Source of the DNA: Acidimicrobiaceae bacterium
GTDB lineage: Bacteria; Actinomycetota; Acidimicrobiia; Acidimicrobiales; Poriferisodalaceae
Length of the DNA: 60,673 nt
Direction of reading: 5' to 3'
NCBI GenBank assembly: GCA_905182565.1
Contig: CAJJCB010000016.1
Location: 1-60,673 of the forward strand
The position numbers were made by a program, and so were the translations under genes. Positions 41,969-45,829 of this stretch are shown here, piece by piece (within the stretch, counting starts at the first letter, position 1; each line of letters begins with the position of its first letter). The notes beneath the pieces are model-generated. The model was given only the letters and a program-made list of their open reading frames with translations, had not been told where the DNA came from and searched no databases.

Positions 41969-43912
41969 TTAGTTACTACTTAGCTCCTCGAGCTGGCTAT
42001 CGCTAAAGGCAGATAACTGTTCTGACGTAAACTGAGAAATTTGTTCTTGCGTTAATTCCCCTAAGGAAGAAGCTGGTAATTTTCGTATTTGCGCCGAACT
42101 CAACGCGGCTAAAACTCCCGAATCCAGTGAAGCAACTTGTCCCGGGCTAAATCCTGCTACGGCACTAGGCTCTAGCGCTGAGACTTGGTCTGCTTCTAAC
42201 GCGCCGAAGGCTTCTTCAGACAGTTCAGCAATTTGAGAAGGCCGAAGTTCTGCAAAAACAACGCTGCTAATCGTCTCTACCTGACTCGCCGTTAATGCAC
42301 TCAATGCATGCGGCGACAACTTGCTGAACTGCTCCGAATTTACTGCTACCGGTTGCAAGAATGTCGCTTCGAGATTTACGTCTTTCAGAAGATCAGCATC
42401 TGGTTCGGCTTTCAAAAACGCAACTTCAGAAGGTGCGTCGGTTAGATCTTCAGGCTCTACTTGAAAAAATGCTGCTTGAACATCATTAGCTGCGACTTCG
42501 GCGGCGTCTTCTGCTGCACTCACACTGGCTGCCTTGAAAAAGGCCGCTATTTCTTCTTCTTCACTTTCTTCGATAGCTGCTGCTAAGGCTGGAGGAAGCT
42601 CATTTTCATCTGAGAAGAAGAAGTTGTTTCCTGACTTCAACATGTCCATTTCATCATCCGGTCCAAAACCATTAGGACCGAAATCGCCTTCTTCACCTGG
42701 CGGGCCAAACGAGCTGAAAAACGAATTCAAACCGCCTTCATCTTCACCCTCAGGACCGTCACCAGGACCAAAAGACATGAAACCACGGAAACCATCATCA
42801 CCATCATCACCATCAGGACCAAAGGCACCCTCCGGCATCTCTGGACGACCGGCAATATCATCTTCGAAACCCATCGCCATCATCATGGATTCCATCATGT
42901 CAGCCATCTGATCTGGATCTAAACTGTCGAGCTCATCTTGAGAAGGCATCATTTCCATCATCATCGAACCAGAAGGCATCTGACTCGGATCAAAATCGTC
43001 ACCCTCAGGACCAAAGAAATTGCCACCAAAGCCTTGCGGCATAAAATCGCCATCTGGACCATTAGGACCAAAATCAGAACCATCTTCAGGGCCGAAGAAG
43101 AAGTTATTTCCTGACTTCAACATGTCCATTTCATCATCCGGTCCAAAACCATTAGGACCGCCGTCTTCACCGGGAGGACCAAACGAGCCGAAGAACGAAT
43201 TCAAACCGCCTTCATCTTCACCCTCAGGACCATCACCAGGACCAAACACCATGAAACCACGAAAACCGTCATCACCCTCAGGACCGAAATCGCCGTCATC
43301 GCCAGGAGGACCAAAATCAGGTAAATCATCTTCGAAACCGAACATGCTCATCATGGATTCCATCATGTCAGCCATCTGATCTGGATCTAAACTGTCGAGA
43401 TCATCTTGAGGAGGCATCATTTCCATCATCATGGAACCCGGAGGCGGACTCTCCCAATCATCACCCTCGGAGCTAAAGAAATTGCCACCAAAGCCTTGCG
43501 GCATAGAATCGCCATCTTCTCCGGGAGGACCAAAATCGCCGTCATCACCGCGAGGACCAAAATCGCCGTCATCACCGCGAGGACCAAAATCGCCGTCATC
43601 ACCAGGACCGCCAGGACCGCCGTCATCACCAGGACCGCCAGGACCGCCGTCATCACCAGGACCGCCAGGACCGCCAGGACCAGAATCACTAGGACCAGGA
43701 CCAGGACCAGAATCACTAGGACCAGGACCAGGACCAGGACCAGGAGCAGGACCAGGAGCAGGACCAGGAGCAGGACCAGGACCACTACTATGATTGTCAG
43801 CAGCAGCCAACGCAGGCGATAGAACAAGCATCGTTGCAGCGAGAAGCACCGTGATAGCCAATCGGGCCTTGGTCATCACTTTACGCTGCATAGTCTCTAG
43901 TTCGTCCCGCAT
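41969..43912 (-). CDS. Secreted collagen-like, repetitive acidic protein
   Basis: 647 residues, no family recognised. Order: signal peptide (1-38, core AITVLLAATMLVL, cleavage near ALAAADN); Gly-Pro-rich region 44-79; 19 uninterrupted Gly-X-Y triplets 80-136, collagen-like; two tandem about 150-residue units (137-290 and 291-433) starting MPQGFGGNFF and containing MMMEMMP and LDPDQMADMMESM; a region 440-525 with repeated AFF/AFL-containing segments; and seven 16-residue repeats plus a half (528-647), consensus Q-[VI]-x-x-L-x-x-x-x-L-x-x-L. Very acidic, Met-rich in parts. No anchor is seen, so it is secreted or surface-bound. ATG 43912 has GGAGGG at six bases and overlaps the lipoprotein gene by 16 bases. 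Confidence 0.85.
   Translation of the reverse strand: MRDELETMQRKVMTKARLAITVLLAATMLVLSPALAAADNHSSGPGPAPGPAPGPAPGPGPGPGPSDSGPGPGPSDSGPGGPGGPGDDGGPGGPGDDGGPGGPGDDGDFGPRGDDGDFGPRGDDGDFGPPGEDGDSMPQGFGGNFFSSEGDDWESPPPGSMMMEMMPPQDDLDSLDPDQMADMMESMMSMFGFEDDLPDFGPPGDDGDFGPEGDDGFRGFMVFGPGDGPEGEDEGGLNSFFGSFGPPGEDGGPNGFGPDDEMDMLKSGNNFFFGPEDGSDFGPNGPDGDFMPQGFGGNFFGPEGDDFDPSQMPSGSMMMEMMPSQDELDSLDPDQMADMMESMMMAMGFEDDIAGRPEMPEGAFGPDGDDGDDGFRGFMSFGPGDGPEGEDEGGLNSFFSSFGPPGEEGDFGPNGFGPDDEMDMLKSGNNFFFSDENELPPALAAAIEESEEEEIAAFFKAASVSAAEDAAEVAANDVQAAFFQVEPEDLTDAPSEVAFLKAEPDADLLKDVNLEATFLQPVAVNSEQFSKLSPHALSALTASQVETISSVVFAELRPSQIAELSEEAFGALEADQVSALEPSAVAGFSPGQVASLDSGVLAALSSAQIRKLPASSLGELTQEQISQFTSEQLSAFSDSQLEELSSN
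41972..42331 (-). repeat. Seven-and-a-half 16-residue leucine/glutamine repeats
   Basis: Coding repeats at residues 528-647 of the collagen-like protein, each 48 bases. Examples: QIAELSEEAFGALEAD, QVSALEPSAVAGFSPG, QVASLDSGVLAALSSA. Spacing is exactly 16 with Q at position 1. The DNA has diverged between copies, so selection seems to hold the protein pattern. Confidence 0.8.
42614..43504 (-). repeat. Large tandem duplication in the collagen-like gene
   Basis: Two units of about 430-460 bases start at 43504 and 43042 and encode parallel proteins (MPQGFGGNFF... to ...SGNNFFF). Stretches of more than 50 bases are identical, around 42628-42680 and 43108-43160, so the duplication is recent or kept uniform by conversion. 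Unit B has small insertions relative to A. Confidence 0.85.
43505..43675 (-). repeat. 27-base tandem repeats encoding Gly-X-Y triplets
   Basis: Short repeats of 27 bases (nine codons) encode GGPGGPGDD three times and GDFGPRGDD-type units three times. Further short GPG/PAP repeats follow up to about 43785. Confidence 0.85.
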
Positions 43913-44631
43913 TCGAATCCCTCCGAAAGGGCAAAGAACGAATCTGTTACAGCCGTTCTTTTAACACCACTAACTGTAAGAGCGAATGATCTTCCGCTGG
44001 TTCCACAGGTCCATCCCGCGATCAGAGCAGTACCTTTCGTGGTTTCATCATCAGTCGCAACAAATGTTGCATACGAGGCTTCCTGAGTGTCGACCGTAAA
44101 CCCAGTTTCCCCAGAAGAAGTGAGCGAGAACTCGAGCGACGTTGTTTGCTGGAGAACCTGGAAGGAGCTGACTACGGACTCACCGGGACTCAACGGAACT
44201 TCGTCAGTTCTCCAAAGAAGCAGGACACTTACACCGCCCGCTTGAGCGATAAGAGTTCCTTCAGCGTTGCTGGCTTCAGAGGTAGTGATTCCGGTATAGG
44301 TTGCCTCAAGCCCAGATGGAAGCGGCAAAGCGAAACCGTATTGACGATCTTTCGTGATTTCTGGGATGGTTGCGGGAGTGAACCAAACGCTGCCATCATT
44401 TTCTTTCTTGAAGTACGATTTCAAAGCTGCGACTTCATCAAGAACTTCGCTTAATTGAGCCTCTACTTTAGTCAAGTCGACACTTGCTTCAGATGCCGCT
44501 TCAACCGTCATCTCCACAGTTGAGTCTTCACTATCTGCGGAGGTCTCACCGCCACCACAGGCTGAAGCGAGCAGGGCTACCACCGCTACTAGGCTTGCAA
44601 GTACTTTACGATTAGCCAATCTTGACGTCAT
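43897..44631 (-). CDS. Lipoprotein of unknown function
   Basis: 244 residues with a lipobox LLASAC (Cys25) after a hydrophobic core. An acidic Ser/Glu linker and a short coiled-coil-like helix (LTKVEAQLSEVLDEVAALKSYF) precede a beta-rich domain with two Cys (WTCGTSG and FECGTN) that may form a disulfide. No family is recognised. ATG 44631 has GGGGGA upstream; the frame extends to 44652. It overlaps the start of the collagen-like gene by 16 bases, so both are likely translated together, and the lipoprotein may hold the partner at the cell surface (inference). Confidence 0.8.
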   Translation of the reverse strand: MTSRLANRKVLASLVAVVALLASACGGGETSADSEDSTVEMTVEAASEASVDLTKVEAQLSEVLDEVAALKSYFKKENDGSVWFTPATIPEITKDRQYGFALPLPSGLEATYTGITTSEASNAEGTLIAQAGGVSVLLLWRTDEVPLSPGESVVSSFQVLQQTTSLEFSLTSSGETGFTVDTQEASYATFVATDDETTKGTALIAGWTCGTSGRSFALTVSGVKRTAVTDSFFALSEGFECGTN

Positions 44632-44706
44632 GATTTCCCCCACCGAATTCAAACTTAAATTTGAAAAAATTAATTAACGTTTAGTCTAGTACATCGCCAT
44701 AGTTAG

Positions 44707-44749: not shown

Positions 44750-45829
44750 TTAGCTCGGCTTCGATTGCGAAGGTTCGATACGAACTGCTACTTCATTAGC
44801 TAGCAGCCTGCCAGCTTGATTTAGGCGCACATGCCCCGGTCCTGCTTGTTCTACGAGATGTGCAACTGACTCAGGAACTACCTCTGACGGCACACCATTA
44901 GATGTGCGGATAGCTAGTTGCAAGCCTTCCAGTTTCCAATCTTCTTTGTTTAAGGTTTCGGTGCCTGCTTCTGTGCTGTCGCCGCTTTCGATAGCTTTTA
45001 TAAACCGTTCGGGCGTTCTAACGCTCCAGAATCTTCGACCAGCTATATGGCTATGCGCTGCTACTCCTAACCCAAGATATTCGCCTTGGCTCCAGTACAA
45101 GTGATTATGTTGGCATTGATTATCAGCGAGCGCCCAATTGGAAATTTCATAGTTCTCATAGTGTTGGCTACTCAACATTTCGTCTGCCATAACATATTTG
45201 TCAGCTTGCACATCGTCATCAGGATGCCTGTCAGGATCCTCAGCTAGAGGCGTACCTGCTTCTACTGTAAGCGCATATGCACTGATATGGTCTGGGCCTA
45301 GTTGCAGTGCGGCTTCCAATGATTTTTGCCATTGTTCCATGGTTTCCCCGGCTGCCCCATAAATAAGGTCAAGGTTAAGTTTCTTAAAACCTGCAGATCT
45401 TATATGTCCGACAGCGGCAGCAACATTTTGGGGGTTATGTTCACGTCCGAGCGATTCAAGAACCTCCGGAATCATCGATTGAACCCCCATACTGATACGC
45501 GTAACACCGCTTTGAAAATAAATGCGCATCTGATCTTCTGTAACCTTGTCGGGGTTACATTCGACTGTGAATTCTACGTTTGGAGCCAGCGGAAGATCTT
45601 CAAAAATAGCCATCAATTCTGTCGCTGGCACCAAGTTAGGTGTGCCACCACCAACGAAAACAGATGTTATTTCTGGTACTTCAGATGAAATCGTTTGGGC
45701 TTGTTTCTTGCAGGCCAGAAGATATGGTTCGATGAGGTGGTGCCGGTCTGTCCAAGTTGCGAAAGCGCAGTAATCGCAACGGTGAGAACAAAAAGGTATG
45801 TGCAAATAGATACCGAAGTTACCTGTCAA
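44750..45829 (-). CDS. hemW: Radical SAM heme chaperone HemW
   Basis: 359 residues. The cluster motif CSHRCDYCAF (Cys14, 18, 21) is of the HemN/HemW type, with the HemW-typical YLHIPFC start, VFVGGGTPNL, GVTRISMGVQS and a C-terminal HemN_C-like domain. True coproporphyrinogen oxidase (HemN) has a longer N-terminus, so HemW, a heme-delivery factor, is preferred. Its ATG overlaps the DUF2797 gene stop by four bases. Confidence 0.9.
   Translation of the reverse strand: MTGNFGIYLHIPFCSHRCDYCAFATWTDRHHLIEPYLLACKKQAQTISSEVPEITSVFVGGGTPNLVPATELMAIFEDLPLAPNVEFTVECNPDKVTEDQMRIYFQSGVTRISMGVQSMIPEVLESLGREHNPQNVAAAVGHIRSAGFKKLNLDLIYGAAGETMEQWQKSLEAALQLGPDHISAYALTVEAGTPLAEDPDRHPDDDVQADKYVMADEMLSSQHYENYEISNWALADNQCQHNHLYWSQGEYLGLGVAAHSHIAGRRFWSVRTPERFIKAIESGDSTEAGTETLNKEDWKLEGLQLAIRTSNGVPSEVVPESVAHLVEQAGPGHVRLNQAGRLLANEVAVRIEPSQSKPS

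Follow-up and report, generated by a model that had tools for sequence, protein, structure and literature searches.

Background

Bacterial collagen-like surface proteins such as Scl and BclA carry an uninterrupted run of Gly-X-Y triplets in an exported protein, and they share this trait with the repeat protein described here. A second group of related systems is united by the Mog1/PsbP-like fold, which serves many unrelated jobs. SciW, EagT6, Tsi3 and Tli4 are chaperone or immunity proteins of similar fold. In the same group, the structure entry of MTC28 bears the title "secreted proline rich antigen" and that of Apa is titled as fibronectin-binding. On a larger scale, genes for surface structures located in flexible genomic regions are described, in the excerpted text of PMC3782348, as recognition targets of phages.

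Secreted repeat proteins help decide the encounters of planktonic cells with phages, grazers and particles. The source family of Acidimicrobiales appears, from excerpted literature, to be marine; the excerpt of PMC10205998 mentions neither collagen nor the terms extracellular, adhesion, secretion or repeat.

Our present results describe a two-gene accessory unit, composed of the genes at 43897-44652 and 41969-43912 in the window (the whole stretch of 60,673 nucleotides that was analysed), which overlap and, at resolved sites, are jointly present or absent. An earlier note on this DNA had singled out the second gene for its three classes of repeats.

Results

The repeat gene

The repeat gene (Table 1) comprises 647 codons, starts with ATG and contains no internal stop in the ORF check. 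The strand, the length and all three repeat classes given in the earlier note were reproduced. It is present in a single copy in the genome of the window. No exact repeat of 60 bases was found in it; some of 50 bases were, those listed lying in the Gly-X-Y tract. With the cleavage site placed by eye, the mature part spans residues 39-647 (609 amino acids) and holds 76 Asp and 54 Glu (130 acidic residues) against 7 Lys and 7 Arg (14 basic), together with 51 Phe, 33 Met, one Trp and neither Tyr nor Cys. Export, as claimed before, is suggested by the putative signal peptide and by signal-like N-termini at the same position in five relatives, likewise judged by eye. The repeat protein itself carries no recognised surface anchor.

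The start codon at 43912 lies 16 bases within the lipoprotein ORF. Start sites of the form MR[NQK]E occupy the same overlap in G004, G017, G025 and G033, and G012 is without an ATG at that position. A scan for promoters and terminators was uninformative (6 promoter-like sites against a shuffle mean of 3.6, and 2 terminator-like sites against 4.5).

Table 1. Features of the two-gene unit and its flanks (coordinates in the window; residues are those of the repeat protein unless stated otherwise)
Feature	Position	Strand	Remarks
Right flank, CPBP/Rce1-like membrane protein, 226 aa	40981..41661	(-)	PF02517
Secreted acidic repeat protein, whole gene	41969..43912	(-)	647 aa ORF
Seven 16-residue ALTTAQ repeats, residues 528-647	41972..42331	(-)	PF20080; PDB 9zem_A; model pLDDT 87
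Linker with four F[F/L] motifs, residues 438-527	42332..42601	(-)	FFKA 458, FFQV 482, FLKA 499, FLQP 518
Acidic Met/Phe unit, copy 2, residues 287-437	42602..43054	(-)	matches positions 3-60 of 75 of the relatives' unit profile
Acidic Met/Phe unit, copy 1, residues 133-277	43082..43516	(-)	matches positions 3-75 of 75 of the relatives' unit profile
19 Gly-X-Y triplets, residues 80-136	43505..43675	(-)	none such in relatives' fragments examined
Gly/Pro-rich low-complexity tract, residues 39-130	43523..43798	(-)	G 38%, P 27%, D 17%; tandem arrays
Putative signal peptide, residues 1-38	43799..43912	(-)	cleavage site set by eye behind ALAAA
Partner lipoprotein, 251 aa; predicted Mog1/PsbP-like domain, its residues ~115-250	43897..44652	(-)	16-base overlap with repeat gene
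Left flank, HemW-like radical SAM protein, 359 aa	44750..45829	(-)	PF04055

The Gly-X-Y run

The longest uninterrupted Gly-X-Y run counts 19 triplets, exactly as noted before, and exceeds everything obtained in 5000 shuffles of residues 39-140 (maximum 13, mean 4.2) or in 5000 two-residue block shuffles of the same residues (maximum 11). It is made of 27-bp tandem copies. Such a run, together with the signal-like N-terminus and a folded C-terminal cap in the structural model, is what would be expected of a bacterial collagen-like adhesin of the Scl type, whose triplets form a trimeric stalk presenting the C-terminal solenoid. The composition of the run and its distribution nevertheless make this quite unlikely. 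The run contains 16 acidic and 2 basic residues, and proline occupies the X position in 3 of 19 triplets. Among relatives, runs of at most five triplets were seen in ten incomplete fragments of seven genomes (five N-terminal and five C-terminal, all cut by contig ends; the C-terminal pieces of G004 and G014 were left out of this comparison). No collagen model is present among the three Pfam matches listed to E 1, where HMMER filters may drop weak ones, and neither Pfam nor NCBIfam recognised a trimerisation domain. The collagen reading was set aside on the strength of the relatives' fragments and of the charge and proline placement in the run; the collagen-like helix envisaged in the earlier note is unproven, conservation of the sequence giving it no backing.

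The visible N-terminal tracts of five relatives are different ones, Gly-, Pro- or Ala-rich with stretches such as PPPA, GPGP, APAP or poly-Gly. In the charge-hydropathy plot the Gly/Pro tract and both acidic units of the window's protein fall on the disordered side, as do the five relatives' pieces tested, and the FF linker falls on the folded side.

The acidic unit and kinship to relatives

The two copies of the acidic unit, about 150 residues each, align with a local score of 594 (maximum of 126 in 200 shuffles), and their DNA is identical at 377 of 415 aligned bases (91%). A unit profile of 75 positions was built from the units of six relatives. The best domain of the window's units scores 16.9 bits with composition correction and 42.2 bits without it. 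Neither value was reached by any of 1000 residue shuffles of these units (maxima 8.1 corrected, 19.0 uncorrected) nor by any of 1000 shuffles in blocks of five residues (at most 15.1 and 34.7), although the corrected block-shuffle maximum of 15.1 is close to the 16.9 bits of the window and is a point against kinship. In relatives the aligned core of the unit is MFKAFGFEDD...GHRGFMSF...EGGLNQFF...GAKDFFF; the window has MMAMGFEDD...GFRGFMSF...EGGLNSFF...GNNFFF at the corresponding place.

Pairwise searches gave graded results, to be read with the caution that identities among low-complexity acidic proteins are inflated by composition. BLASTP without filter, run with the window's protein against seven fragments, matched G012 (E 5e-11), G004 and G028 (both 2e-7); G017 reached only 0.02, G015 gave conflicting values of 0.08 and 8e-7 in two runs, and G014 and G033 were unmatched at E 1. 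A longer profile, A1, finds its own six sources; in the 39 family genomes it missed, even at E 1, the proteins of the window and of G033, which speaks against kinship, and its one further match there was a weak one in G030 (E 0.09). Across 298 genomes of the order it returned at E 0.001 only its own sources G004 and G014, the window's genome being missed. When the full repeat protein was searched against 61 genomes at E 0.001, four relatives were matched: G004 and G025 at the true locus, G049 and G030 through the Gly/Pro-rich start only. G033 fails the unit shuffle test, as 977 of 1000 of its own shuffles reach the corrected score and 35 of 1000 the uncorrected one; its kinship is suggested by locus position and by the FF motifs.

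NCBIfam yielded no match for the repeat protein or for two relatives' pieces, and Pfam none for three relatives' pieces. The earlier statement that no homologue is known does not hold, given the Pfam-matched C-terminus described below and the same-locus pieces in 8 of 38 other family genomes.

In all eight sequences in which this part is visible, the last FFF is succeeded by a regular series of four F[F/L] motifs, spaced by 14-24 residues. Six of these sequences are mutually close, and the count should therefore not be taken as eight independent cases. Of the window's four motifs, two are FL; G017 and G014 carry one extra FF. The layout shared by the relatives thus consists of a signal peptide, a Gly/Pro/Ala tract, one or more acidic units with FFF at the end, four F[F/L] motifs and a variable C-terminus. 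In 28 of 28 pairs, the similarity of the repeat protein over its aligned part falls below that of CPBP.

The excess of acidic over basic residues (130 against 14) and the 33 Met in the mature part could also suit a cation-binding protein, for calcium or, by means of Met clusters, for copper, which would buffer metals or steer mineral growth at the surface. The Met clusters are, however, peculiar to the window and not seen in the relatives' units, and no metal-binding family appears among the Pfam or NCBIfam matches. Because no such clusters were seen in relatives, metal binding through them was set aside. We consider this explanation unlikely, and metal (calcium) binding, a candidate role in the earlier note, is unproven, with no backing from conservation.

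The C-terminal ALTTAQ repeats

The C-terminal 120 residues match Pfam family PF20080, ALTTAQ_rpt, in four stretches (E 1.2e-11; 44.5 bits, gathering cut-off 26.4). HeliScrew4 (PDB 9zem_A) is matched at E 2.5e-10 by the full protein and at 2.6e-11 by the C-terminal segment alone. Within residues 528-647, both identity and hydrophobic pattern peak at shifts of 8, 16, 24 and 32 residues, most strongly at 32, and therefore an 8-residue unit appears to alternate, giving 16. A single-sequence model, with mean pLDDT of 87, predicts DSSP helices of 4-8 residues, which, together with the Pfam match, bears out the solenoid proposed for this segment in the form of a predicted stack of short helices. The best match of the model with both Foldseek and VIA is a mesothelin-type superhelix, a weak one at Foldseek E 8e-3; with VIA Z 6.1 and an rmsd of 5.0 over 118 residues, it lies in a range that may reflect a common arrangement only. 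Literature search gave nothing on ALTTAQ or HeliScrew, and the excerpt of the mesothelin paper PMC2628672 makes no mention of bacteria or prokaryotes.

No ALTTAQ match was found in other family genomes (searches covered 36 of 38), and of 298 genomes of the order two contain ALTTAQ_rpt, that of the window and G219. The latter, a small 1.7 Mb genome, has at L064 (724-3105, G219:C15) a 2027-residue frame with ALTTAQ-like repeats; the part read shows the pattern MPPNAFSGMKPNQMGQ. The visible C-termini of relatives are formed by an acidic tail or end after the last FF motif. As the Gly-X-Y run, the ALTTAQ repeats and the Met clusters were not seen in the relatives at this locus, they look like lineage-specific decoration on a shared frame.

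The partner lipoprotein

Cys32 of the lipoprotein is invariant in six of six members, suggesting that this residue is the site of lipid attachment. In none of the six members did Pfam yield anything better than E 0.02, and none of the matches listed is named for the Mog1/PsbP-like fold. The structural model is weak as a whole (mean pLDDT 50.5), with block means of 60-84 in residues 131-250. Its highest similarities by VIA are to SciW (Z 9.5), Apa (9.2), LpqN (9.0), DcrB (8.9), Mog1 (8.4) and PsbP (7.6); 26 of 1000 chains reach Z of at least 8, and the best Foldseek E is 1.9e-4. A Mog1/PsbP-like fold is therefore predicted for the C-terminal domain on the basis of this model. The title of the SciW entry describes that protein in complex with a transmembrane domain, and by analogy an interaction of the lipoprotein with the hydrophobic FF motifs would be a reasonable guess.

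A search of the genome contigs with the lipoprotein gave no match. With profile A2 of the lipoprotein, G000 and G004 were the only genomes of the order (298 searched, E 1e-6) to give a match. Identity among lipoproteins tracks that of the neighbouring product of 44750-45829, which we take to be HemW (r 0.94 over 15 pairs), the pattern that inheritance with repeated loss would be expected to leave.

Filled and empty sites

Genes for the HemW-like protein and CPBP flank both filled and empty sites. Pieces of the repeat gene were located at the same locus in G004, G012, G014, G015, G017, G025, G028 and G033. The lipoprotein is complete in five of the 38 other family genomes and cut by a contig end in one. 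Next to each of the five complete copies comes an ORF that has a signal-like N-terminus and a tract rich in Gly, Pro or Ala and is cut off by the contig end, 177-345 bases past the lipoprotein match; in G025 only the first 71 residues of the repeat protein are visible. From the other side, an acidic frame of 188-347 residues precedes CPBP in seven genomes and also runs off the contig. Four genomes show both ends of the gene, and the pieces therefore represent eight distinct relatives.

Among resolved sites, both genes are present at six (G000, G004, G012, G017, G025 and G033, one judged from the start alone) and both absent at four (G001, G006, G020 and G035). The linkage of the two genes, which the earlier note had proposed to check, thus holds at ten of ten sites, the window included. 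Sites in G014, G015, G028 and G031 are half-seen, and G019, G021 and G023 are not counted among the resolved sites. The four empty sites come from genomes of 65-94% completeness (G035 65%), and two of them from contigs under 4 kb (G001, 3285 bases; G006, 3752 bases). In G001, a member of the same genus, some 115 bases separate the end of HemW from CPBP, and the window's sequence aligns over the 90 bases that precede CPBP. In G006, G020 and G035, a small helix-turn-helix gene (PF12728 in the G012 copy scanned) stands between HemW and CPBP, and neither gene of the pair does. None of these four incomplete genomes has a lipoprotein match elsewhere (E 0.001; E 1e-10) or a match to A1.

The helix-turn-helix gene (HTH_17, 70-80 residues) adjoins CPBP in 12 of 14 CPBP loci (L023-L033 and L046, some of them contig-cut). 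It is absent next to CPBP in G001, the contig of G019 starts too late to show it, and tblastn at E 0.01 found none in the window.

Joint presence or absence of the pair, the variable C-terminus and the occurrence of SciW, EagT6, Tsi3 and Tli4 among the fold matches of the lipoprotein would be in keeping with a secreted effector for which the lipoprotein acts as chaperone or immunity protein. Against this, Pfam and NCBIfam showed no toxin domain, either in the protein of the window or in the pieces of relatives submitted to them (three of seven with Pfam, two of seven with NCBIfam), such C-termini as can be seen consist of acidic tails or a repeat solenoid, and the fold is one of many uses. Such an effector is highly improbable.

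Every one of the 12 contigs of relatives with a piece of the repeat gene ends inside it (five on the lipoprotein side, seven on the CPBP side). These breaks might speak for an assembly error or for a decaying gene without function, as might the frames of G004 and G012, which end before the C-terminal tail of the others with stops inside their profile matches. An open frame through 647 codons of repeats, and the retention of motifs, of the signal-like start and of gene order in several genera, argue the opposite; moreover, a gene with no 60-base exact repeat is spannable by short reads, although its copy number could be wrong. We regard error or decay as very unlikely. The frames of G012 (L023 2648-3577) and G004 (L026 2647-3339) stop after SFFNPGGGGN, and in G004 the tail known from other relatives appears to continue in another frame.

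G028 has two relevant contigs, C31 and C14 (L104, L105): one leads from HemW directly to the helix-turn-helix gene, the other has the repeat gene before the helix-turn-helix gene. The two align at 145 of 162 bases and are near-identical over the last ~100, which may point to two strains in the bin. Contig breaks in the repeat gene may partly stem from differences between strains rather than from repeats.

Discussion

We propose that the repeat protein is an accessory, fast-changing, largely disordered acidic surface polymer that is held or escorted by the lipoprotein, and assign to this reading a probability of about one half. After export, the Mog1/PsbP-like domain of the lipoprotein would lie outside the membrane and hold or escort the repeat protein, perhaps gripping it through the FF motifs; the polymer would then be tethered at the cell surface. 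The Gly/Pro tract and the acidic units, probably disordered in the cell as well, would form a negatively charged spacer with periodic aromatic stickers, and the protein as a whole could surround the cell with a hydrated coat, fibre or matrix. In the genome of the window, the ALTTAQ short-helix solenoid would serve as a C-terminal cap and could bind a partner. Adhesion or a surface fibre, roles considered in the earlier note, are possible ones. The rapid change of the protein and the recurrent loss of the pair hint at selection acting on exposed surface features, for instance by phages or grazers.

With confidence slightly short of even, we extend this proposal to a hitherto undescribed family in marine Acidimicrobiales, made up of surface units of two genes each: a lipoprotein of Mog1/PsbP fold would hold a disordered acidic polymer via four FF motifs, the tract, the number of units and the cap would change quickly, presence would vary within a genus, and the family would be hidden as repeats end contigs. 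To judge by literature searches, Pfam and NCBIfam only, the repeat-gene family appears not to have been described before. A possible reason for its having gone unnoticed is that the repeat gene is interrupted in most assemblies. Short-read assemblies lose secreted repeat proteins, as the locus itself illustrates with all 12 relatives' contigs broken within the gene. It makes two questions testable: what share of their surface proteins the metagenome genomes of uncultured marine actinobacteria lack, and whether a disordered polymer can be anchored by a lipoprotein with the Mog1/PsbP fold.

Comparison with known systems shows partial likeness in each case. The resemblance to ALTTAQ_rpt and HeliScrew4 is confined to the C-terminal 120 residues of the repeat protein. 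In contrast to Scl and BclA, its Gly-X-Y run is strongly acidic, has proline rarely in X and was not seen in the relatives' fragments. The lipoprotein resembles LpqN, Apa, MTC28, DcrB and SciW in its predicted fold (Z 6.7-9.5) at a sequence identity of 4-9%; unlike in the group of MTC28 and Apa, lipid anchor and proline-rich polymer are here two separate genes. With the islands described in the excerpt of PMC3782348, the locus has in common presence or absence between relatives, an exported product and fast change; it differs from them in being a two-gene unit at a fixed site instead of a large island, and the link to phages is drawn by analogy.
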